From Synergistaceae bacterium (GTDB taxonomy: Bacteria; Synergistota; Synergistia; Synergistales; Aminobacteriaceae), in the NCBI GenBank assembly GCA_031272035.1, contig JAISUO010000045.1, positions 1-43,685 of the forward strand: a stretch of 43,685 nt of DNA, written 5' to 3'. Positions 8,138 to 20,741 of the stretch are shown here, piece by piece (positions within the stretch are counted from its first letter, which is position 1; every line of letters begins with the position of its first letter). The position numbers and the translations under genes were made by a program. The notes below the pieces were generated by a model. It searched no databases and was not told the DNA's origin. It worked only from the letters and a program-made list of their open reading frames with translations.

Positions 8138-10000
8138 CTATTTCAAGGCAGCGCCCGCGGCCGCTCTTTCGCTCTCGTATCTCTCCAGGGCTTTGGGATA
8201 ATCGTCCATTCCCACCGGCTTTTCCAGCATTTTAATACCTTTCATCTTGAAGGCGCCGAAACGCCCCATCTGTCCGGTAAGCCCCGAAAACGGGTCGAGG
8301 AGGGAAGCCCGATATCCGCCGCCCGACGTGTAAAACGGGATCAGAACGGCGTTGTCCAGCGCCAGCTTCTCCGCTTCGGCAAAAAGCTCATAGCGGCGCT
8401 TCATGTCCTTCACCTCGGACGCGGCTTCCTCGAACATCGTTTCCAGCCTGTAATGGCCGTCGGCGCTCTGCAGGTCCTTCGCCCTGTCCGTTCTGAACCA
8501 GCGATTCGTGCTGGCCGCCATAAGAGGGACCATCATGCCGTAAGGGTCGGCAAAGTCAGGCCCCCAGCCGCTCTCCATCATCGAAAATTTCCCGGGCACG
8601 CGGACCTCCTGGTTATAGCCGGTGGCCGGATATGAAACGAGAACGATATCGATGTAATCCGTGCCCAGCAGTTTTTCCATCTGCTGTTCGATGATCTGCA
8701 TCCGGTTGGCCGTGTCCACGTTGTTTGTCGCGTAGGGCATCACGACCCTGATCGGAAATTTCACCCGCCCTTTGAGAGATTCCAGGGCTTTGTCTCTGTA
8801 CTCCAGCGCCTTTTCCGGATTGAAGGACTCGTTATCCGAATATTCCTTCAACCCGCCCAGCTGAGTGTAGTCCACGCCGGCAAGGCTGACCAGCCCTCTG
8901 CGGGTGAAGGTGTTGAGCAGTTTGCGTTTGGGGTTGAAGGGCTCGACGGTGAGAACGGCGGCCTCCCGGTCGAAGGCGTGGAAAAGCGATTTGCGGAAGC
9001 TGAGGTCATTGACCGCCACGGCCCAGTCGGCGGGCGCGTACTGTTCCTCGTACTTCGGCTCGAAGTTGAAAGCCAGAAAATAGGACATGTTGGTGAGGTT
9101 ATTGGGGTACATCATGGCCTTCTTCGCCGGATCCTTCATCCATTCGTCAACGATGCTGCCCGGAAGGACGAAGTCATTGATCTCTCCCCGAAGGAACAGC
9201 TCCGGCCCAAGGGCCGACGCCTCGGCGTTGTAGATAAAAACCATTTCCTCGACTTCGTTGGCCTCTTTGTTCCAGTACCCGTCGTTCGCCGTGAGGATCC
9301 TTCGCTGCTGGGGCTCGAACTCGGTCAGCAGGTAGGCCCCGCAGTACAGCAGATTCTCCTTCGACGACCCGAAACGATCGCCCTTCTCCGCGAGGAATTT
9401 GCCGTTCACAGGGAAAAACGCCGTGAAGGAAAGCTGTTTGATAAAGTAAGGAATTGGCTTGAGGAGCGTGTATTGAAGCGTGTGGTCGTCCAGGGCTTTG
9501 ACCCCGACCTCTCCAAAGTCCGTTATTTTGCCCTCGTAGAACTCGCGGGCGTTTTTGATGGACGTGTAGATCGTGTTGCTCTGCGACGAAGCGTTCGCCT
9601 TGGTGAGAATCCACTTCGCGGAGTCGACGAAGTCCTGCGCCACCAGAGGGGCGTATTCCTTTCCTTCCCACGTGTACCATTTGATGTCGTCCCTGAGATG
9701 GAAGGTGCAGGTGAGGTTATCATCGGAAATTTCCCAGCTCTTTGCGATACAGGGGATAAGGTATCCAAACCGGTCGAACTCCACGAGGCCGTCCTGTGTG
9801 CTGTAAGCCAGGGAAATATTGCTGGTCGCCGAATCTTTGAGATAATTGGCCGTGGTGAGCTCGCTGAATACACCGTTGGGATAAACCGTCACGTATTCCG
9901 AAGCTCTTGCGGCATCAAGGGGCAGCAGCGACAGACAAAGCAGCAGCACGGAAAACAGCGCGCCCCTCATTCCCGTCAGTCCTCTCTTCACTTCTCTCAT
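8138..10000 (-). CDS. Peptide ABC transporter substrate-binding protein (SBP family 5)
   Basis: Periplasmic binding protein that captures peptides for the importer encoded downstream. After a Sec signal peptide (GALFSVLLLCLSLLPLDAARA, cut before SE) comes the family-5 fold. Diagnostic stretches are DGLVEFDRFGYLIPCIAKSW, TCTFHLRDDIKW, DFVDSAKWIL and, near the C terminus, GWGPDFADPYGMM. There is no good lipobox, so it is probably soluble. I chose the ATG at 10000 (MREVKRGL) because GGAGG lies 11 bases upstream and the signal peptide starts there. A GTG at 10099, also with a GAGG-like site, would add 33 residues before the signal peptide and is less likely. The mature protein is long (about 590 aa), as in OppA. 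Confidence 0.93.
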   Translation of the reverse strand: MREVKRGLTGMRGALFSVLLLCLSLLPLDAARASEYVTVYPNGVFSELTTANYLKDSATSNISLAYSTQDGLVEFDRFGYLIPCIAKSWEISDDNLTCTFHLRDDIKWYTWEGKEYAPLVAQDFVDSAKWILTKANASSQSNTIYTSIKNAREFYEGKITDFGEVGVKALDDHTLQYTLLKPIPYFIKQLSFTAFFPVNGKFLAEKGDRFGSSKENLLYCGAYLLTEFEPQQRRILTANDGYWNKEANEVEEMVFIYNAEASALGPELFLRGEINDFVLPGSIVDEWMKDPAKKAMMYPNNLTNMSYFLAFNFEPKYEEQYAPADWAVAVNDLSFRKSLFHAFDREAAVLTVEPFNPKRKLLNTFTRRGLVSLAGVDYTQLGGLKEYSDNESFNPEKALEYRDKALESLKGRVKFPIRVVMPYATNNVDTANRMQIIEQQMEKLLGTDYIDIVLVSYPATGYNQEVRVPGKFSMMESGWGPDFADPYGMMVPLMAASTNRWFRTDRAKDLQSADGHYRLETMFEEAASEVKDMKRRYELFAEAEKLALDNAVLIPFYTSGGGYRASLLDPFSGLTGQMGRFGAFKMKGIKMLEKPVGMDDYPKALERYESERAAAGAALK

Positions 10001-10152
10001 TGCAGGTATTGCCTCCTTATTCTCTGTGTGTGACTCCTGTGTCCAATTACCTGAATCCAGTTTTGAAAACCTCAATACCGCCCTCTGTTTTGAACTCACA
10101 CCTTTCCTCTGATTCTTTGAATCGTTGTAATGTTTGAACGAATACTAATTGC

Positions 10153-10161: not shown

Positions 10162-10223
10162 GTTTTTGCAGAATTTATTTAAAACACAAAATAACAGAAT
10201 ATTTGATATACGAATAAAAATTA

Positions 10224-10262
10224 AGCGACAGCCGCCCGCAGTCAGGCAGCTGCCGCTTTTTA
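10224..10262. terminator. Bidirectional intrinsic terminator
   Basis: AGCG.CAGC.GCC at 10224 onwards pairs with GGC.GCTG.CGCT ending at 10257, with two mismatches and an 8-nt loop. A run of T follows on the plus strand, and TAATTTTTA follows on the minus strand. On the minus strand it ends the Synerg-CTERM surface-protein operon just upstream of the peptide-importer promoter. Confidence 0.7.
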
Positions 10263-10286: not shown

Positions 10287-12314
10287 TTACTTTCGACGTC
10301 TGCGAAGGATCGTACTTAGAACTGGCAGAAGCAGAACCGCGCCCGCCGGGATGCCTCCACTGCAGCCGCCGCCTCCCCCGGACCCCGGAGACACAGGGGT
10401 GGTAGGAGTCGCGGGGTCATCCAGAGACGGGGCTTCTCCCGCGGGGGCCACGAAAAAGCTCAGATCTATCTTTCCATCCGCCGCCCCGTCGCCAATCAGG
10501 ATGTAGGGAACGCCGTCGTCCTGGACGACCTCGCAGAACGCCGTTTTTCCGGTATTTTGGCTGACCGCGTCCGCGATAAGGACGATAAAATCGATGTAAA
10601 CAAAATCTTCATAGGTGAAGGCCTGAACGCATCTTTCCACGCTGTATCCCCTGTTGCGCAGGGTCGTGAACAGATTCATGTCCCGCTCCGCCGTGGCGTC
10701 CGACCTCACCCACACCGCGCAGATGTTGGCCAGGGCGCTGATGACGCTGTCGGCGTTTTCGATGGCGTCCCACTGGTTCACAAGAGGGGCTTCCTTCCGG
10801 GAGACGCGCATCCGGATATGGACGGGCAGCAGCGCAACGCCGGACGAAACGGCGGGCACGTCGTTCGAGCTCACCACGTCTCCGGACGCGGTGACATCCG
10901 CCGAGGGATCCCGCATATCGACGAAAATCTGGAAAGACGAAATCGCGTCGGCCTTGATGTAACGATCGTAAACTCCGGAAAAATCGAAGCTGGCGACAGG
11001 CATGGAGGGCGATCCCCCCGCGTATTTGGCGATTTCCGCCCTCGTGTTGTCGCTGTTCTCAGCCACGTCGGCAAAAGTCATGTTGAAGGCCGTCACCGTC
11101 GCTCCCGTGGTGCTCTTCGTCCCCTGTCGCAGCATCCCCCCCACCTTGCGGAAGGTGAGGCGCAGGTCGCTGGGCGCGGCGGCCCCCTGGTAGGGATAGA
11201 GTCTCAGGGATTCGCTGGAGCCGTAGGTCATATCCATCGAACTGTTGTAGGTGGTGATGAGGCCAGGCGCGATCTGGCTCTGAGGGTCCAGCTCGAAGGA
11301 AGCCGGCAGCGTCGCGTAAAGATCCGGAGTCAGGTCGTACATCCAGTACTGGGGCCAGATTTCTTCGTATCCTCCGCTGCCGATGTTATCATAGCGCTGG
11401 ACACGGTAACGAACCCCCGTTCTGTTGGTGACCCGCGTCCTCAGAGCGTATCGGGGGGCCGCGTCGCTGGACGCGAGGATCATGAAAAAAGTGCCCATGT
11501 CGCGGGTCATGTTCTGAGCCGCGCCCCAGCGGAATTTCTGGCGGGTGACGGGCTCGGTTCCATTCAGCACCGTCATGTCGAAATACAGCTCGTTTCCCGC
11601 CTCGGAAGCCGGACCGTCAAAAACGTTCGCCACCACCAGCGGAATTTTTATCGACTCGCGATACCCCGTGAAGGCCGTGTCGAAGCTGGCCGACTGACGA
11701 AAGGTCAGATACCCGAGAGAACTGCCGTAGGTCTGGGGGGATTCGGACTGCAGCCTCATGTTCGTCTCCAGCCAGCTTCCGCCCGGAACCAGCGTCGGGG
11801 TATCCGGAGTCACCCGCGTGACGTAGTCGGGAACCGACAGCAGAACGTCCTCCATCGCGGGCTCACTTGTGCCGTAGGGCATATGATGCGCGTAATTGTT
11901 GCCGAAGTTGACGTTCAGCTCACCCCGTCCCTCCGTGATGACGAGACAGACCGACTCGATGGGGTCGAAGCTGACGTCGTCCCCCCAGGCCAGTTCATCC
12001 TGAGGGTCTTTGAGGTAAACGCCGTTGAAGTCCGACACCAGGTCCGCTGAAGTGACCATGGGGGCCTCCGGCGCCTCGCCTCCGTCGGTATCTCTGTAGG
12101 CGACCCAGGCGCTGTCAACCCAGTGCCAGTCCGTAACCGTGGCAAACCACTGGGACCCGGCGACGGTATGCCCGTCCTTTTCGCCGCTGACGTCTCTCAG
12201 CTGGTACCAGGAGAAATGATAGGGATTGGTGGACGCCGCCGAGGCCGCGCCGGAGGTCCACAGCACCAGCGCCAAAACGAACGCGAAGGCTGAAAAACGC
12301 GAATTTCGTTTCAC
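10287..12314 (-). CDS. Secreted Synerg-CTERM surface protein, paralogue of the 16.3-18.2 kb gene
   Basis: Unrecognised 675-aa exported protein. A signal peptide (FSAFAFVLALVLWTSGAASA) is followed by a long beta-rich region and a C-terminal Synerg-CTERM tail: Gly-rich linker with one Cys (GSGGGGGCSGG), a hydrophobic stretch and RRRRK. The tail marks it for surface sorting or anchoring. The GTG start at 12314 is set by AAGGAGG, about ten bases upstream, and lies 2 bp after the stop of the beta-helix gene. It is clearly paralogous to the gene at 16330-18225: TNRTGVRYRVQRYD matches NYTGIRYAMQRYD, and IAPGLITTYN matches IPPGLVTTYN. Just before the linker it has a DG..DGKIDLSFFVA element shared with its neighbours. 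Function is unknown. Confidence 0.85.
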   Translation of the reverse strand: MKRNSRFSAFAFVLALVLWTSGAASAASTNPYHFSWYQLRDVSGEKDGHTVAGSQWFATVTDWHWVDSAWVAYRDTDGGEAPEAPMVTSADLVSDFNGVYLKDPQDELAWGDDVSFDPIESVCLVITEGRGELNVNFGNNYAHHMPYGTSEPAMEDVLLSVPDYVTRVTPDTPTLVPGGSWLETNMRLQSESPQTYGSSLGYLTFRQSASFDTAFTGYRESIKIPLVVANVFDGPASEAGNELYFDMTVLNGTEPVTRQKFRWGAAQNMTRDMGTFFMILASSDAAPRYALRTRVTNRTGVRYRVQRYDNIGSGGYEEIWPQYWMYDLTPDLYATLPASFELDPQSQIAPGLITTYNSSMDMTYGSSESLRLYPYQGAAAPSDLRLTFRKVGGMLRQGTKSTTGATVTAFNMTFADVAENSDNTRAEIAKYAGGSPSMPVASFDFSGVYDRYIKADAISSFQIFVDMRDPSADVTASGDVVSSNDVPAVSSGVALLPVHIRMRVSRKEAPLVNQWDAIENADSVISALANICAVWVRSDATAERDMNLFTTLRNRGYSVERCVQAFTYEDFVYIDFIVLIADAVSQNTGKTAFCEVVQDDGVPYILIGDGAADGKIDLSFFVAPAGEAPSLDDPATPTTPVSPGSGGGGGCSGGIPAGAVLLLPVLSTILRRRRK

Positions 12315-12316
12315 GT

Positions 12317-15300
12317 TTACCGATACCTCCTTCTGAGGGCGAAAAGAACCGCCGGCAGCAGCAATACCGCGCCCCATCCGGCGCTGCAGCCGCCGCCCGA
12401 AGAGCCGCCGCCGCCATTGACGGAGCTTCCGGTTCGCTTCAGAAGCCACATGGATCCGCTGATCGTCCCATCCATCACGCCATCCGCCACAACCAGCGTG
12501 TTGTCGATCAGGGCGGCTTTACCGTTACCTGCCACATCACCCGGCAGAACCTTCAGCTTCAGGGTCAGGCCGTTGTTGCCGTTGGTCATCGTCAGAGCTC
12601 CGCTGGAAACGGCCTTCGACGCGGCAATACCATACTCTCCGTCCGCGTCCACCACAGGGGTCGTCGCTCCGTTCACGCTCTCGAAAACCAGTTTCAGCCT
12701 CTGGAAAAGCTCCGTCGCGTTGTCGACCGTGGTCACCGTTTTGCCAAGGATGCCGCTGACCTCGTCCCAGTCCAGGTTCCACGTATACTCCAGCGGCAGA
12801 ACAGACCCGCCGGAAGAGGACAGAGCGGCCAGAGAAACGCCGATGGAGGGCTTCGTGGAAACCCAGTTGCTTCCCGTGTAGGTGGACTTCGAGTCGAAGG
12901 TGATCACGCTCACGTTCTGGAGCTCCGTGACCTGCGTCGATTCCACGCCGTAAGCGGCTTTAAAAGTGGTCTGGAACGAGGCTGCGTTCACGGTCGCCGG
13001 ATTGGCGTCCACGAAGTAAACCTGTTCGTTGTACGGCTGGAGACTGTTGTTGAAAGTTCCCAGCCGGATCCAGACATCAGGGTGAACGTTGGTGTAGGAC
13101 ATTTCGTCCGTCACCACCAGAACGACGGAATCCGTGGCCAATTTGCCGTCCGCCATGATGCCCACCGAGGTGACGGCAATCGTCGTCGTCCCCCGTCTCA
13201 GGGAAACGAGGTTGCCAAACTGGTCAATGCGGGCCACGGTCGGGTCGCTGCTGGACCAGGTGACTCCCTGTGTGGCCCGGGTGGGGTAGACCGTCGCGGT
13301 CAGGCTGCAGGTCTGGCCGATTTTCACCATCGTGTTGGGGATGCCGCTCATTTTGACATACTCGACATAATACTGGTCGGGATCGGGGGTGGGCCCGCCT
13401 CCGCCGGCCTGCTCCGCCTCATAGGCTCCCACGTCGAAAAGGCCGTTGGGGTTGGGCTGAGGACGATCCAGGTTGCGCTGGTCCACCCGGGAGCTGAAAA
13501 GGTTTCCCTCCCGATTGGGAATCTGGTCCTGCGCGGGGTTGTCCGCCGTTCCCGTCACCAGCGCGACGGTCAGCAGATCGTGAGTGGCTCCCGCGGCTCC
13601 AATGATGATGTCGTTGGGGTTCGATGTTGGGGGGTTGGCCGCAAGAGCGCCGTTGCCGAACATGGAGCTCTGCGACACGCCCGTCTGGTCCTGCGTCTTA
13701 TTGTTCCCCCGAACGTTGCTGTCGGATGCCCAGGGATAATTGGTGGGCTGGGATTGAGAGATAATACCGTACTCTCCCAGGCGGTTGTATCCGCCGGTGT
13801 TGATGGTGACGCCGCCCACCCGGAAGATGTCAGCTCCGAAACTGGCCGCGTTGCCCGCCACGGCGCTGGCGGTAATGGAAAATGTCCCCCCCGCGATGTA
13901 GATGCCGCCGCCCAGGCCGTTGCTGTTGGCGCCGCTGAAGGTGGCGGAGTTCTGATTGGTCACGGTACAGTACAGCATACTGGTCTCGCCTGAAACGTAA
14001 ATCGCGCCGCCCAGGCTGTTTCTCTGGGAGCTTCGGGCCTCGTTCCGGGTGAAGGTGCAGTTGGTGAAGGCGAAGGTCACATTGCCCACCGCGTAAACCG
14101 CGCCGCCCTTGATGTCAACGGTGGAGTTCGCGGCAGCCGTGGCGGTATTCAGAGTGAAGGTGCAACTGTCGAAGGTGGCTGGGCCGAGGACGAAAACAGC
14201 GCCGCCTCCGCCGCCGCTCGAAGTGCCGTCAAGGGATGAATTTCCGGTAAACAGGGATCGCCTGAAGGCCACGGAAGTATTGTTCGCGCCCATATGAACG
14301 GCGCCTCCGTCCTTACCGGCCTGGTTCTTTTCGAAATAGGATTTGTCAAAACGATTGTTCGTGCCGGACTGGAAATAAACGGCTCCGCCGAACTCTTTTG
14401 CCGTGTTGCCGATGAAATTGCAGTTATCCGCGATGACGCCTCCATCGCTGGCCACCGCCCCTCCGGACAGTTCCGCGGTGTTTATATCCGTCGGGGCGGT
14501 TCCGCCGAAAATACAATCGACAAACGTACTGTCCTCACCGCTCTTGGTCGCGCCTCCACTGCCGGCAAGGGCGCGATTGTTTTTGAACACCGCTCCATAA
14601 AATCGAATCTTCTTCCCGGAATAAACAGCGCCGCCGTCGCCGCCCGCCGCAGTTGTTCCATCGGCGCTGTTGCCCGTGAAGGTCACTCCGGCGCCCTGGG
14701 GCAGTTCGATGCCGGCTCCGGTCCAGATCCCGCCTCCGTCTCCCAGTTGCGCTTTGTTGTCCACAAAACTCGCGCCGTTGGCAAGGGTTACGGTTCCCGC
14801 GACATACACCGCGCCGCCGTTTTGCCCCGCCGTATTCGACGAGAAGGCGCTGCCGGACAGGGAGGCGCTGTCATTGGCCGTAATCGCTCCGCCGTTCTGT
14901 CCGGCGGTATTTTGACTGAATGTTCCGGCGGCCGTCAGGTTGACAATCTTGCCGTTGATGGCTCCGCCGTCGCTCGCCGCGCCCGTCGCCCTATTCGTGG
15001 TAAAAGTTCCTCCCGCAAGAGTCACCGTCGCTGAAGGCGCGTTGATGGCCCCGCCCGAACCGGCTCCCGCCAGGTTGCTTACGAAGGAGGCGGCTCCCGT
15101 GATGGTGACGGTACTTCCCGCGTTGATGGCCCCGCCAGCTCCCCCGCTCGCTTTGTTGTCCTGAAAACTTCCCGCGGCAAGAGAAACGGGCCCGGTCGAA
15201 TTAATCGCTCCGCCCGCGCCCGATGTTGTCCCCGCCTCATTTCCAGTGAAAGTCACAGAGCCCGTGGCGGTGACGGAAGACGCGTCGATAGCTCCGCCGT

Positions 15301-16333
15301 TGCCTCCCGTCGCCTTGTTCGTGGTGAACGTCCCTGTCGAAAGAGTGACAGAACCCGCTTTAATCGCTCCGCCATTGACAGAAGCCGTGTTATCCGCAAA
15401 GGTGACGCCGCTCGACGCGGTGACAGAACTGGCGTTGATGGCTCCGCCGCTGCCGTTGCTGACGCTGTTCGTGTTGAACGAACCTCCGGCCAGGGTCAGC
15501 GTCCCCGTGGCGCTGACGGCCCCTCCCGAAGTCCCGGCACTGTTGTCCGTAAACGTGGGGGTTCCCGTAACGGTGAGATTCCCGACGACGTTGACCGCCC
15601 CTCCTGAACCTGAAGCGCCGGCAGTGTTGTCTCTGAAGGTTCCCCCTGGAAGAGTAATATCCGCCGCGGAATTGATCGCGCCTCCCGATGCGCCCGCACT
15701 GTTGTTCGTGGCGCTCAGTGTTCCGGTAAAGGTCGCCTTTGCGCCGGCCGCCACATGGACAGCGCCGCCGTTGCCTGCCGTGGCGGAGTTGTTGGTCAGA
15801 GTGACGTTGTTGAAAGTGGCCTCCCCTCCGTTGACGTTGACGGCCCCTCCATCGCCTGTCGCCAGCGTGTTATTGGTGAAAGAGGTTCCGGTGAAGGTTA
15901 CTTTTCCGCCGTCAATCCTTACAGCTCCTGCTGCTCCGGAGGCGCCCGTGTTATTTTGAAAGCTCGTGCCGGTTCCAAAAGTGACCGTCCCCGCACTGCT
16001 CCCGACAGTCACGATTGTCGCGCCCGTGCTGCCATGAAAGGGAACTCCATTGAACGCCACGGTTCCGGAGCCCGTAATGTTGAGCCCACCTCCGCTCGTC
16101 GCATTCAGAGATCCCGTTCCGCTGACGGTAAAAACAATCGGGTCGGCAACAGTCAAGGGAGCCGTAAGCGTAATGGGTGCGGTAATTTCAATGGCCGGCT
16201 GAGGCGTAAGCCAGGTGGGACCGCTTCCCGTAACGGCTTCAATAAGATCCGCCGCAGTTCCAACCGCCGTCGCCGCGTGAGCACTGTCACTAAGCGCCGC
16301 GACCAGCAGGCACGCCAAAAGAAATTTTTTCAT
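12317..16333 (-). CDS. Giant beta-helix surface protein with GGA[IV] repeats, Big2 domain and Synerg-CTERM tail
   Basis: 1338-aa exported protein, probably an adhesin or surface-layer component. Signal peptide residues 1-20 (ending HAA). Residues about 115-840 hold roughly two dozen repeats of 25-29 residues, each with a GGAI/GGAV core and an F..N.A element. This is the pattern of polymorphic-outer-membrane-type right-handed beta-helices. A DQRNLDRPQ...DVGAYE segment, common at the end of such helices, follows. Then comes a Big2-like Ig domain (about 1030-1110: WSSSDPTVARID, GTTTIAVTS). The end is Synerg-CTERM: GGGGSSGGGCSAG, hydrophobic stretch, RRRYR. There is no autotransporter barrel. ATG at 16333 has GGAGGGG six bases upstream and overlaps the previous stop as ATGA. 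Confidence 0.9.
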   Translation of the reverse strand: MKKFLLACLLVAALSDSAHAATAVGTAADLIEAVTGSGPTWLTPQPAIEITAPITLTAPLTVADPIVFTVSGTGSLNATSGGGLNITGSGTVAFNGVPFHGSTGATIVTVGSSAGTVTFGTGTSFQNNTGASGAAGAVRIDGGKVTFTGTSFTNNTLATGDGGAVNVNGGEATFNNVTLTNNSATAGNGGAVHVAAGAKATFTGTLSATNNSAGASGGAINSAADITLPGGTFRDNTAGASGSGGAVNVVGNLTVTGTPTFTDNSAGTSGGAVSATGTLTLAGGSFNTNSVSNGSGGAINASSVTASSGVTFADNTASVNGGAIKAGSVTLSTGTFTTNKATGGNGGAIDASSVTATGSVTFTGNEAGTTSGAGGAINSTGPVSLAAGSFQDNKASGGAGGAINAGSTVTITGAASFVSNLAGAGSGGAINAPSATVTLAGGTFTTNRATGAASDGGAINGKIVNLTAAGTFSQNTAGQNGGAITANDSASLSGSAFSSNTAGQNGGAVYVAGTVTLANGASFVDNKAQLGDGGGIWTGAGIELPQGAGVTFTGNSADGTTAAGGDGGAVYSGKKIRFYGAVFKNNRALAGSGGATKSGEDSTFVDCIFGGTAPTDINTAELSGGAVASDGGVIADNCNFIGNTAKEFGGAVYFQSGTNNRFDKSYFEKNQAGKDGGAVHMGANNTSVAFRRSLFTGNSSLDGTSSGGGGGAVFVLGPATFDSCTFTLNTATAAANSTVDIKGGAVYAVGNVTFAFTNCTFTRNEARSSQRNSLGGAIYVSGETSMLYCTVTNQNSATFSGANSNGLGGGIYIAGGTFSITASAVAGNAASFGADIFRVGGVTINTGGYNRLGEYGIISQSQPTNYPWASDSNVRGNNKTQDQTGVSQSSMFGNGALAANPPTSNPNDIIIGAAGATHDLLTVALVTGTADNPAQDQIPNREGNLFSSRVDQRNLDRPQPNPNGLFDVGAYEAEQAGGGGPTPDPDQYYVEYVKMSGIPNTMVKIGQTCSLTATVYPTRATQGVTWSSSDPTVARIDQFGNLVSLRRGTTTIAVTSVGIMADGKLATDSVVLVVTDEMSYTNVHPDVWIRLGTFNNSLQPYNEQVYFVDANPATVNAASFQTTFKAAYGVESTQVTELQNVSVITFDSKSTYTGSNWVSTKPSIGVSLAALSSSGGSVLPLEYTWNLDWDEVSGILGKTVTTVDNATELFQRLKLVFESVNGATTPVVDADGEYGIAASKAVSSGALTMTNGNNGLTLKLKVLPGDVAGNGKAALIDNTLVVADGVMDGTISGSMWLLKRTGSSVNGGGGSSGGGCSAGWGAVLLLPAVLFALRRRYR
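13814..15991 (-). repeat. Coding repeat array of the beta-helix protein
   Basis: Tandem imperfect repeats of about 75-87 bp encode the GGA[IV] turns (residues about 115-840). Early repeats are the most regular, with GGA cores spaced 25-29 residues apart; later ones are more divergent and acquire Cys residues. DNA identity between copies is only moderate, with the Gly-Gly-Ala-Ile/Val codons most conserved. Confidence 0.85.
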
Positions 16334-18225
16334 TTTTTACCCCTCCGTTTCACAATCACGGGGATGCAGACCGGCAGCATCAGTAGAACAAACCCCGCCG
16401 ACCCGGTGTTGCAGCCGCCGCCGCTGCTGCTTTTCGACTGAGGACGGTCCGTCGACACGTATCCGTTGGAGGCGACGAAGAACGTCATCTCCCATTTGTT
16501 GTCGCCGCTGCCGTCCATCGCTACAATAAAGCTGTTGCTGGTGGCCGTCGTCGTGTCGTTCACGAGGCGCACCACCGATCTCGGCCCATCCGCAAGCAAA
16601 ACGATAAAACTGACCGTCAGGACGCTCCGCTGTTCGTCGAGGAAGACCTTCACCGTTTTGGTGTAGGCTCCCTGATTTCTCAGCCAGTCCGTCAGGTCCA
16701 GGTTGTTTCCGAAGGCGTCCTGCATATAGAGGCCGAAGGAGGAAATGAAGGTATTTCGAATCTCGCCCGTCTCGCGCCACTCTTTGAGCAGTTCATCCCA
16801 TTTCGGGTACACGAGCTGGTTCGAGCGAGGCAGATTGAACGTGACGTGGAGCGGCAGAATTCCCGCCCGACTCGCGCCGCTCAGGCGTCCCGGCACGGGC
16901 GCGCTCACGGAGAAGGACCCAATGGCGTCCCCTCCCACCCAGGCGTAACTCACGGCGCCCCCCATGACGCCGTCGGTCCCCTCGGGCATCTGCGCTTCTG
17001 AGACGCCCAGCGCACTGGCCACATTGGACAGAAAATTCGTTCCGGCGGAGAGCAGGCTGAATCCCGTCACGCTGTACCCGTGGGGCGACGCGGAGTCTCT
17101 GCCCGTCCCCAGGTCCAATCCGAAGATGGAGCGGTGGGAAATGGTGAGGTTGCGGAATCCGGAGGCGGGGTCCACGGGATACATGTGCATGGTCTCACGA
17201 ACGCCGCTGACGACGTTAAAGCTCTGGTTGTAGGTTGTGACCAGTCCAGGCGGGATATGGCTGAGTTCGTCCAGATAAAGAGTCGAGGGGACGTCGGTCT
17301 GGGCGGGAACGTCGAAAGCCCACCGGCTCGGGTACATGGGGTTCCAGACGTAGCCATCGTACCGCTGCATGGCGTAGCGGATGCCCGTGTAGTTGACGAC
17401 CTCCGTGCTCATGCGATAGTTGACGGCATTGCTGTCCACGGGCAGCTTCGAGATCGGAACGAAGACCCAGTCCGTGTCCGTCCCGACAGTCAGGTCATCC
17501 ACAACCTTCCAGGTGAAGCGATCATGGGCGACGATGTCTCCATTTCCGGTTCCCGTGGCCGTTTCCCGAATGGTGGACCGGAAGAGCAGGGGGTTTCCCT
17601 CCGCCGTGCCATCGTAGACGTTGGCGACGATGAAGGGGACCTGGAGGGTCTGAGAGGGCAGGTCGTTGGGGTTCTGGTGAAAGATGAAATTCCCCCGAAC
17701 GCTGCCGTACTTCCCCGCGTCGACGGTTTTGAGGAAGGAGAGGTCGAAGAGTTTGTCCGGCGCGCTGGACTGGGTCAGAGGGGTCTTCACCACCTGATAG
17801 GAGGCGTTGTCCACCAGAACATCCTGAGTGAAGGACTCCCCTGGTGAAGGAACCCGCGGAAGCCAGTCGAAACTCACCCGCATACTGCCATTGTTGCCGG
17901 GCATCACCAGAAACAGCGTATGAATCCCCCATCCGTCGCCATTGGGAGAGCTCGCCAGGCCCCTGCCGTTGGTGAGGTACACGGACGCGCGCGAGAGCGC
18001 GAGATTCCCCTCAGTGTCCAGAGGCGCGCGAAACGTCGCGTTGCCCCCCGTTGTCATGCTGGTGGTGACGGCCATCCACTGAGCGCCCACTCCGCTGGGT
18101 CCGTACAGATCGTCGAACTGATAATCCGCCCGGCACTCCGCCGCGAACAAAATCATCAGAAGAACAGACGCCCATACCGTTATTCGAGCCTTTTTACAGG
18201 TCTTTCGCATCCCGGTCTTTTTCAC
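16330..18225 (-). CDS. Secreted Synerg-CTERM surface protein, first gene of the trio
   Basis: Unrecognised 631-aa exported protein and paralogue of the 10.3-12.3 kb gene. Signal peptide ARITVWASVLLMILFAAECRA, then a beta-rich body. The C-terminal Synerg-CTERM tail has SSSGGGCNTGS, a hydrophobic stretch and KRRGKK. Shared blocks with its paralogue include VANVYDGTAEGNPL (VANVFDGPASEAGNEL), NYTGIRYAMQRYD and PPGLVTTYN. The pre-linker element reads MDGSGDNKWEMTFFVA. I place the start at GTG 18225 (VKKTGMRK), nine bases after GGGAGG; ATG at 18210 is the alternative. Its stop overlaps the next start by 4 bp, so the three genes are one operon. No enzymatic motif is seen. Confidence 0.85.
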   Translation of the reverse strand: MKKTGMRKTCKKARITVWASVLLMILFAAECRADYQFDDLYGPSGVGAQWMAVTTSMTTGGNATFRAPLDTEGNLALSRASVYLTNGRGLASSPNGDGWGIHTLFLVMPGNNGSMRVSFDWLPRVPSPGESFTQDVLVDNASYQVVKTPLTQSSAPDKLFDLSFLKTVDAGKYGSVRGNFIFHQNPNDLPSQTLQVPFIVANVYDGTAEGNPLLFRSTIRETATGTGNGDIVAHDRFTWKVVDDLTVGTDTDWVFVPISKLPVDSNAVNYRMSTEVVNYTGIRYAMQRYDGYVWNPMYPSRWAFDVPAQTDVPSTLYLDELSHIPPGLVTTYNQSFNVVSGVRETMHMYPVDPASGFRNLTISHRSIFGLDLGTGRDSASPHGYSVTGFSLLSAGTNFLSNVASALGVSEAQMPEGTDGVMGGAVSYAWVGGDAIGSFSVSAPVPGRLSGASRAGILPLHVTFNLPRSNQLVYPKWDELLKEWRETGEIRNTFISSFGLYMQDAFGNNLDLTDWLRNQGAYTKTVKVFLDEQRSVLTVSFIVLLADGPRSVVRLVNDTTTATSNSFIVAMDGSGDNKWEMTFFVASNGYVSTDRPQSKSSSGGGCNTGSAGFVLLMLPVCIPVIVKRRGKK

Positions 18226-18315: not shown

Positions 18316-20391
18316 TCACTGCTCCCGGTGTATGACCCGGCGGGAGCCTCCCGCTCCGTCTCTGGGGCTTCTGCGTTCCCGGCGATAGCGGGATTCTCTG
18401 AGGTTTGCCGGCTCTTCTCGATCTTTGGGGTTCTTCGGTTCCAACCCGTCGAGTTCGTGTTTGTCCTGAGTTTTTTCCTGATCCGGATCCTCATGAGCGG
18501 CATCTTTGGGAGCTTTTACGTATTTCAGATCCCGCAGCAGCATCGAGGCCGTGACGACGGAAACGTGTTCGATGGGCTGAAGAACCGCCATGCGAGCGAA
18601 GCAGGACTCGATTTCACCTGCCGCATGGGCGTATTTTTTGTCGTCGAAAACCCGGGCCATGGCCACGTACGCCATCATGGCCATGCCGTTGGCCGAGGGA
18701 AAACTGTCGTCCACGGCGGTTTTTCGCCTGAAAAAAATGCAGGATTCGTCCTCTCCGGAGAGGAAAAATCCGCCCTTTTCCCCGTCCCGGTAATGGATCT
18801 CCAGCCCCGTGGCAAGGTCAAGGACGTATTTCGTCCAGTCTTTTTTCTGCCGATCCGTTTCCGCGGCCTCGCAGAGCTCCATGACGCCCCACATCAGCGC
18901 GGCGTAGTCGCCGGGAAGAGCGGGAACGGCGGCCTCCTTGCGGCGGTAACGACGACGCCACTGGCCCTTGGGGTCCACGAGAACCTTCTGCAGGAAAAGC
19001 GCCGCCCGTTCCGCGGCAAGGATCCATTCCTTCCTCTCGAACACCCGTCCGGCCCGGGCGAGAGCTCCGATCATGAGCCCATTGTCCTCCATCAGAACCC
19101 GGGAGTCCACCTCGGGAGCGGGTCGGCGGCTTCGAACTTCGAGAAGCGCCCGTCGATCGTTTTCCAGACGTTTGGCCACTTCGGGGGCGCGAATGCCATA
19201 ACGCCGCGCCAGATCGCTGACGGAGAGGGCCTCGTAAATCACGTTGCGCCCCATCTGAACGCCGGAAACCTCGTTGCAGAAATTTCCTCCGGGCAGGATG
19301 CCGCCGGCCGCACAGAACAGACCTGCGTCTCCCGAAGGCAGCGCGGAGCGGATTTCCTCGTCCGTCCAGAGATAGAAGCGCCCTTCCTCCCCCTCGCTGT
19401 CGGCGGCGATGGAGGTCAGGAAACAGGACTCCGGAGAGGTGAAATCCCGGGTGACGCAGGTGACGATATCCTCGGCAAAACTTCGGTAGAACTCGTCAGG
19501 ATGAACCTCCTGAGCGACAGCCGCCACTCGCAGCAGCATGGCCTGGTCCCGAAGCAGTTTTTCGAAATGGGGGGCCATCCACCGCTCGTCGGCGGCGCTG
19601 TGGGCAAACCCTCCGCCCAGGTGATCGTGAATGCCGCCCTTCCACATTTTGCGCAGCGTGGTGTCCACCATGGCTAAAGCCTCGTCCCGGTCGAGGTTCG
19701 ACTCTTTTCTGGCGTACTCCAGAAGAAAGAGCAGGGCGGGAGCGCAATGCCGTTTCGGAGGCGGTCCAAACCCCCCCCAAATCGCGTCGCTGGTTCGTTT
19801 AAGCTCCTTCATGACGTTGCGAACGTGAACCGTCCCGATACGCCCTCCCGAAGCAAAGGTGAACTTCGCCGAAATCGTATCCACAAGGCTCTTCGCGCCG
19901 CGAACGACGTCTTCCCGCTGCATCAGCCAGAGCCATTTCACCCGGGGGACGATGTCCGCCAGCCCCGGAACCTGTCCTGTGGTCCGCTTGGGCAGAAAGG
20001 TGGCGGCAAAAAAAGGCTCCCCCTTCGAGGTCAGGAAGAGGCTGAGGGGCCATCCCGCGCTGCCGTTCTGAATGCGGCAGATCTCCGTGAACAGGTCGGC
20101 GAGATCGGGGCGCTCCTCACGATCCACTCGAACCGAAACGCAGGTGTCGTTCAAAAGATCGGCCACCTCCGGGTCGTTGAAACAGTCCCGTTCCATGACT
20201 CTGCCCCAGTGATCGGACGGAGAGCCGATCGAGAGAAAAACGGGCCGATCCTCCTCCGCCGCGGCATCGAAGGCTTCTTTTCCCCAGGGATGCCACTTCA
20301 CGGAACGACGTGAACGTTCCTCCCGAACGTCGGACCCCAGCCCGACCTTACGGGTTCCGTCCCCTTCGTCTTCCGTCATTTTCATTTCCAT
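18316..20391 (-). CDS. YyaL/DUF255-family thioredoxin-like protein with lost CxxC motif
   Basis: 691-aa protein of the YyaL/SSP411 family: an N-terminal thioredoxin-like domain followed by an (alpha/alpha)6 barrel. Family landmarks are VKWHPWGKEAFDAA, PVFLSIG, VRVDREERPD, AGWPLSLFLT and, further on, HDHLGGGFAHSAADERWMAPHFEKLL. The usual CHWCHVM motif is DHWGRVM (residues 60-66), so both redox cysteines are gone and thiol chemistry is unlikely. After about residue 620 there is a charged low-complexity tail of roughly 70 residues rich in Asp, Glu, Lys, Pro and Arg, which is unusual. The ATG start (MEMKMTED) has GGAGG five bases upstream. The family function is poorly known; it lies upstream of and co-oriented with the Synerg-CTERM trio, 90 bp away. 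Confidence 0.88.
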   Translation of the reverse strand: MEMKMTEDEGDGTRKVGLGSDVREERSRRSVKWHPWGKEAFDAAAEEDRPVFLSIGSPSDHWGRVMERDCFNDPEVADLLNDTCVSVRVDREERPDLADLFTEICRIQNGSAGWPLSLFLTSKGEPFFAATFLPKRTTGQVPGLADIVPRVKWLWLMQREDVVRGAKSLVDTISAKFTFASGGRIGTVHVRNVMKELKRTSDAIWGGFGPPPKRHCAPALLFLLEYARKESNLDRDEALAMVDTTLRKMWKGGIHDHLGGGFAHSAADERWMAPHFEKLLRDQAMLLRVAAVAQEVHPDEFYRSFAEDIVTCVTRDFTSPESCFLTSIAADSEGEEGRFYLWTDEEIRSALPSGDAGLFCAAGGILPGGNFCNEVSGVQMGRNVIYEALSVSDLARRYGIRAPEVAKRLENDRRALLEVRSRRPAPEVDSRVLMEDNGLMIGALARAGRVFERKEWILAAERAALFLQKVLVDPKGQWRRRYRRKEAAVPALPGDYAALMWGVMELCEAAETDRQKKDWTKYVLDLATGLEIHYRDGEKGGFFLSGEDESCIFFRRKTAVDDSFPSANGMAMMAYVAMARVFDDKKYAHAAGEIESCFARMAVLQPIEHVSVVTASMLLRDLKYVKAPKDAAHEDPDQEKTQDKHELDGLEPKNPKDREEPANLRESRYRRERRSPRDGAGGSRRVIHREQ

Positions 20392-20741
20392 TTTTCCTCC
20401 TCCACCCCGCCGTCCGCACTCGTAAAGGACGCGTCGGAACCTGCTGCGACCAGAATTCATGAGCTCCGTCAAACGCCCCTCAGGATGTCCCGAAAACGTC
20501 ACCCTTACCCTTCAGTTTCGGCTTCGCAGGGGATTTTTACAACACCGGGACAACCTTTTCTTCCTGTTCACAATTATTCGGATACAGATGTTACCTCATG
20601 CCAGGGCTAAAAGCAAAAGCGGCTCTTTCCGTAATTGCTGAAGCAAAATATGGGGGCTTCGTGCCGGATGTCGTTTTTCTATTGCAGGCTTTTGTTGTAT
20701 GATAGAAACGTTTTCCACCGAAGTGACAGGAGGTCGTTTTT
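20392..20741. other. Intergenic region between divergent genes
   Basis: About 350 bp separates the YyaL-family gene (minus) from the small plus-strand ORF. The only candidate signal I see is a -10-like TGTATGATA at 20696-20704 on the plus strand. I see no gene, terminator or tRNA. No convincing minus-strand promoter could be picked by eye. Confidence 0.5.
20696..20704 (+). promoter_or_regulatory. -10-like box upstream of the 30-aa ORF
   Basis: TGTATGATA, 37 bases before the ATG of the small ORF, with a weak -35 (TTTTCT) 17 bases further up. The same nonamer precedes ompH at 32495-32503. Confidence 0.35.

Follow-up and report, generated by a model that had tools for sequence, protein, structure and literature searches.

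Synerg-CTERM tails in three Synergistaceae surface proteins: a probable anchoring route and an undescribed domain ahead of the anchor

Does a motif which precedes a C-terminal sorting tail belong to the sorting signal or to the protein that is sorted? The question is raised by three adjacent genes, P3, P2 and P1, in a stretch of 43,685 nucleotides from a Synergistaceae bacterium (GenBank assembly GCA_031272035.1, contig JAISUO010000045.1; this whole stretch is called the window). The C-termini of all three proteins consist of a Gly/Ser linker, a single Cys, a hydrophobic stretch and a basic end, with 4-5 Lys or Arg among the last 8 residues. In each protein a DG..D[GN] sequence, the D-G element, precedes the linker (Table 1). 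The initial annotation located proteins, tails and motifs correctly. It considered the tails to be Synerg-CTERM sorting signals and suggested that the D-G element may be a dedicated docking or processing module. The analysis presented here sustains the first proposition and contradicts the second. Very probably, the locus combines a known anchoring chemistry with a conserved P3-P2 gene pair which possesses an undescribed pre-anchor domain. To judge from the sequences, the D-G element appears to be the end of the last folded domain, i.e., of the cargo, and not a part of the anchoring signal.

Tails, protease and secretion genes

In an NCBIfam scan the Synerg-CTERM model TIGR04564 aligns in full with all three tails, at scores under its curated cut-off of 22.5 bits. 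The P3 tail has 22.9 bits in a genome-wide TIGR04564 search (neighbours counted), and the tails of several P2 orthologues exceed the cut-off, for example with 27.3 (L190), 28.8 (L174) and 29.1 bits (L159). Further, a Cys tail is present in every intact relative of P1, P2 or P3 of which the C-terminus was read, including seven P3-type proteins from a second family of the order. A search for the tail by DNA pattern gave no match. All three tails are treated as real Synerg-CTERM members.

The genome contains a single gene of the CPBP/Rce1-like family PF02517 (G000:C3:5584-6096). NCBIfam classifies it as MrtS, the glutamic-type intramembrane protease of the Synerg-CTERM system (NF040589; 239.6 bits, 2e-71, equivalog cut-off 130 bits); the name of the model itself pairs MrtS with Synerg-CTERM. 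The sequence carries the Rce1-type catalytic motifs EExxxR (EETFYR) and HxxxN (HALCN) and has 68 bits against Mrt_core (cut-off 100). The pairing of Synerg-CTERM with MrtS was reportedly predicted in silico by Haft in 2024, in a study listed as reference 16 of PMC11980579. Among 41 genomes of the family, 23 are at least 95 % complete; the presence of MrtS coincides with that of Synerg-CTERM in all 23, of which 19 have both and 4 have neither (Fisher 1.1e-4). MrtS is the likely candidate for the enzyme which cuts Synerg-CTERM tails. A CPBP protease had been suspected from the beginning, rightly so as far as its probable role and its absence from the window are concerned; the gene is located elsewhere in the genome.

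A cluster of type II secretion system (T2SS) genes is present on contig C102 (L291), comprising GspC, GspL, GspD, GspE-like, GspF-like and GspG. GspC and GspL were identified by Synergistota-specific models. GspD (381.6 bits, cut-off 351.35), GspG, GspL and GspC are over their cut-offs; GspE and GspF are best matches below theirs. In a sample of 83 family genomes MrtS and the Synergistota-type GspL agree in 44 of the 45 genomes that are at least 95 % complete (Fisher 3.4e-5). Secretin counts (PF00263) were discarded as a T2SS marker; they did not separate genomes with MrtS from those without, which the Synergistota GspL model does.

Two observations on the surroundings of MrtS may be added. 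Two Synerg-CTERM matches are positioned within about 5 kb of the gene (L020, G000:C3, approximately 1186 and 9606), the one at C3:9606 being weak by score. In four nearly complete genomes of the family (G005, G014, G024, G034) MrtS, Synerg-CTERM and the Synergistota GspL are all absent, as if the pathway were missing as a whole.

The anchoring route that we propose is modelled by analogy on the related MYXO-CTERM system, for which cleavage by MrtX, a requirement for Cys and T2SS dependence were reported, and lipidation was proposed (PMC11980579). The host is a Fretibacterium-like diderm of the Synergistaceae, in which P3, P2 and P1 would be co-transcribed surface proteins. Sec would export them via an N-terminal signal peptide, and the hydrophobic helix at the C-terminus would keep them in the inner membrane, the Arg cluster remaining cytoplasmic. 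The single Cys of the tail would be lipidated and MrtS would cut just after it. The protein would then cross the outer membrane via the T2SS, and the lipid would retain it on the surface. The D-G element would be where the final strand pair of the folded domain ends, immediately before the flexible linker.

The D-G element and the domain it terminates

Within the 60 residues before the anchor the pattern DG..[DN][GN] is found in 20 of 133 tails; 500 shuffles gave 2.3 on average and 8 at most, and none of 273 windows taken further upstream from these proteins contains it. The 133 tails were not drawn at random; they comprise the better-scoring matches of the family search and the matches from this genome. 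When each homology cluster is represented by a single protein, about 7.5 of 62 have the motif versus 1.15 after shuffling (maximum 4), and at least two of the motif clusters resemble low-complexity coincidences (L121, L141). The D-G element is above chance, yet it is a minority feature: 113 of the 133 tails are without it. In this genome it is restricted to P1, P2 and P3 among approximately 16 recognisable Synerg-CTERM proteins, four of which were judged by eye. An element present in a minority of tails cannot be indispensable to the tail. The element neither accompanies the tail regularly, as the initial annotation would have it, nor is it scattered at random. Since all intact relatives which were read carry the tail and few tails carry the D-G element, the C-terminal domain predicts the tail, and the tail does not predict the domain.

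The DG pair is retained in all P1 orthologues (29/29) and nearly always in those of P3 and P2; the second pair is looser. The strict pattern is found in 17 of 29 P1, 24 of 27 P3 and 17 of 30 P2 orthologues. In P1 and P3 orthologues DG and Cys are separated by 32 to 82 residues (a minimum of 11 for P2 is due to a mis-assigned row). Because of this span the sequence data fit a flexible linker better than a docking site. An interpretation as a dockerin or a calcium loop was dropped, as neither had a family match or a structure. A different Synerg-CTERM family (L107, L109, L111, L127, L128, L140) ends in DGG.YDLDG.ANG.VVDP. The two members tested, L107 and L128, match choice_anch_U (NF041766) below the cut-off (25.0 and 25.4 bits). 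The C-terminal regions of P1, P2 and P3 do not match NF041766 up to an E-value of 10.

The paralogy of P1 and P3 extends over the entire proteins (26 % identity, 9e-45), and shared descent explains why both have the D-G element. The situation is less clear for P2. In BLASTP it shows no relation to P1 or P3 beyond the tail. Its C-terminal domain is collinear with that of P1 over about 110 residues with a score of 28.4, above all of 60 column-shuffled controls (at most 19.6); the probability of the alignment is 12.7 % once the linker is trimmed, and the P2 model has an E-value of 0.11 against P1. Taken together, the comparisons are suggestive of a distant homology of the P2 domain with that of P1 and P3. 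Among solved structures neither the P1 nor the P2 C-terminal domain had a match. The domain common to P1 and P3 ahead of the anchor is undescribed and unnamed.

The C-terminal domain of P2 is found in 45 of 83 family genomes. Of the 20 genera in the family 13 have P3 relatives, and these extend to a second family of the order. In 33 of 37 genomes with both, P3 is found on the same strand as the P2 domain and no more than 6.5 kb upstream of it. P1 is usually unlinked to P2; among the matches listed it adjoins P2 only here and in G017, a genome of the same genus. By this synteny P3-P2 is a conserved pair of surface-protein genes, and P1 is a P3 paralogue placed beside it in this genus. In the second family (L293, L294, L299) there is, directly behind P3 orthologues, a start codon with a signal-peptide-like coding sequence similar to the beginning of P2.

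How can the position and the conservation of these domains be explained? One might argue that, after all, the Synerg-CTERM signal includes the D-G element and its strand as a dedicated part for docking or processing, which MrtS or an accessory factor would recognise. The enrichment is directly before the anchor, the element occurs in several unrelated clusters, and all intact relatives of P1, P2 and P3 bear the tail. Against this, most tails are without the element, about 13 of 16 in this genome alone, and this in genomes which have a single MrtS; the distance to the Cys varies; and a similar DGG..DLDG..NG sequence ends choice_anch_U, a domain named as being paired with more than one anchor. 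We consider such a role highly improbable. The view of the D-G motif as a processing site is herewith corrected.

It is conceivable that the domain as a whole, rather than its ending, is read during export. Surface display of VesB of Vibrio cholerae via the T2SS requires both the tail and an Ig fold beside the GlyGly-CTERM linker (PMC13393428). With this precedent, the co-occurrence of T2SS and MrtS and a highly conserved domain that always adjoins the tail, a pre-anchor domain ending in D-G might be a T2SS export signal, other Synerg-CTERM proteins using other pre-anchor domains. That most of them do have other domains speaks against it, and the conservation could equally reflect ligand binding or pairing of P3 with P2. 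An export signal of this kind is unlikely. The more specific proposition, that the Synergistota T2SS recognises the domain of P1 and P3, possibly of P2, while MrtS handles the tail, is a long shot as well. If true, each Synerg-CTERM protein would have two separable C-terminal addresses, and the D-G ending would recur in one class of these. Finally, an interface through which P3 and P2 pair or assemble on the cell surface would agree with the gene order in 33 of 37 genomes and with the collinearity of the P2 and P1 domains. The homology of P2 to P1 and P3 is weak, however, and P1 is usually not linked to P2. We regard an interface as possible, though doubtful.

Our preferred reading, i.e., known anchoring chemistry plus a conserved gene pair with a new pre-anchor domain, has to face several objections. 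In the whole-protein scan the tails score 19.9 (P1), 15.1 (P2) and 19.3 bits (P3), all below the cut-off of TIGR04564. Lipidation of the Cys and cleavage by MrtS are predictions for Synergistota which are carried over from MYXO-CTERM, and T2SS export of P1-P3 is proposed from co-occurrence and analogy. Owing to shared ancestry the family genomes are less independent than the Fisher values imply; of the four genomes that lack all components, three belong to one genus. No structure backs the hairpin reading of the D-G element: for the C-terminal domains of P2 and P1 AlphaFold gave mean pLDDT values of 39 and 39.5, too low for the models to be used.

The locus connects one operon with the full set of parts, i.e., tail, MrtS and T2SS, in a little-studied phylum, and it defines P3-P2 as a conserved pair of surface proteins with an unnamed domain ahead of the anchor. 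Cargo recognition by the T2SS is an old problem, and proteins like these, in which a known anchor signal can be separated from the last folded domain, are convenient for tests of it.

Layout of the locus

The three genes are co-directional, in agreement with the operon that was initially annotated, and their co-transcription may be inferred. The P3 stop and the P2 start overlap (AAATGA). The GTG at 12314 follows the P2 stop by 2 bases and AAGGAGG is located inside the end of P2; an open reading frame start at 12449 therefore seems too early for P1, and GTG 12314 most likely is its start. The hairpin behind P1 is the likely end of the operon. Upstream, a DUF255/thioredoxin-like gene (18316-20502) is co-directional at a 90-base gap; downstream an SBP_bac_5 binding protein is encoded (8138-10099). 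The Arg/Gly codons in the basic ends of the tails (AGAAGGAGG in P2, CGGAGGGGT in P3) double as Shine-Dalgarno-like sequences of the next gene (12300-12345 and 16318-16355).

Table 1. Positions of P3, P2, P1 and their C-terminal features in the window
Feature	Position	Strand	Description
P3	16330-18225	-	631 aa, GTG start; predicted to be exported; C-terminal domain, D-G element, linker, Synerg-CTERM tail
P2	12317-16333	-	1338 aa; signal peptide, POMP/Chlam_PMP repeats, Big_2 Ig-like domain, conserved C-terminal domain, tail
P1	10287-12314	-	675 aa; P3 paralogue with same C-terminal domain and tail
P3 C-terminal domain	16420-17022	-	homologous to that of P1; hhalign probability 99.7-99.8 %
P2 C-terminal domain	12434-13108	-	conserved in P2 orthologues; possible remote homologue of the P1/P3 domain
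P1 C-terminal domain	10401-11045	-	allP...W...LF...DFivl.AD...PYILiGDG..D..W.L.FyVa
P3 D-G element	16471-16521	-	AMDGSGDNKWEMTFFVA
P2 D-G element	12440-12490	-	VADGVMDGTISGSMWLL
P1 D-G element	10446-10496	-	IGDGAADGKIDLSFFVA; DG in 29/29 orthologues
P3 tail from Cys	16333-16413	-	CNTGSAGFVLLMLPVCIPVIVKRRGKK; TIGR04564 19.3 bits
P2 tail from Cys	12320-12388	-	CSAGWGAVLLLPAVLFALRRRYR; TIGR04564 15.1 bits, E 0.018
P1 tail from Cys	10290-10364	-	CSGGIPAGAVLLLPVLSTILRRRRK; TIGR04564 19.9 bits, E 5.7e-4
Terminator-like hairpin	10223-10258	-	16-pair stem, then AATTTTTATT; directly after P1; consensus match only

Comparison with known systems

The repeat region of P2 matches POMP (TIGR01376) and Chlam_PMP (PF02415). 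Besides the repeats the Pfam matches of P2 (12317-16333) comprise only Big_2 and no autotransporter barrel; P2 ends in a Synerg-CTERM tail, and the sorting tail appears to replace the barrel. Choice-of-anchor U (NF041766) likewise has a D/G-rich ending shortly before a sorting tail, yet differs in that the C-terminal regions of P1-P3 do not match it.

The GlyGly-CTERM/rhombosortase RssP system of V. cholerae shares the folded pre-anchor domain, the unstructured linker, the tail and the T2SS (PMC13393428); it employs a serine rhomboid protease and a Gly-Gly motif, versus Cys here. The MYXO-CTERM tail of Myxococcus xanthus, processed by the myxosortase MrtX, is likewise tripartite with an invariant Cys, and a CPBP core and a T2SS are present (PMC11980579). 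It differs in phylum and Cys motif, and MrtS matches other myxosortases below their cut-offs. Cleavage was tested experimentally for MrtX alone, in Myxococcus and in E. coli (PMC11980579). Compared with Synerg-CTERM (TIGR04564)/MrtS itself, the only difference is that the three tails score just under the cut-off; the Gly-rich motif, the single Cys, the hydrophobic stretch and the basic end are alike, and the genome has a single MrtS.

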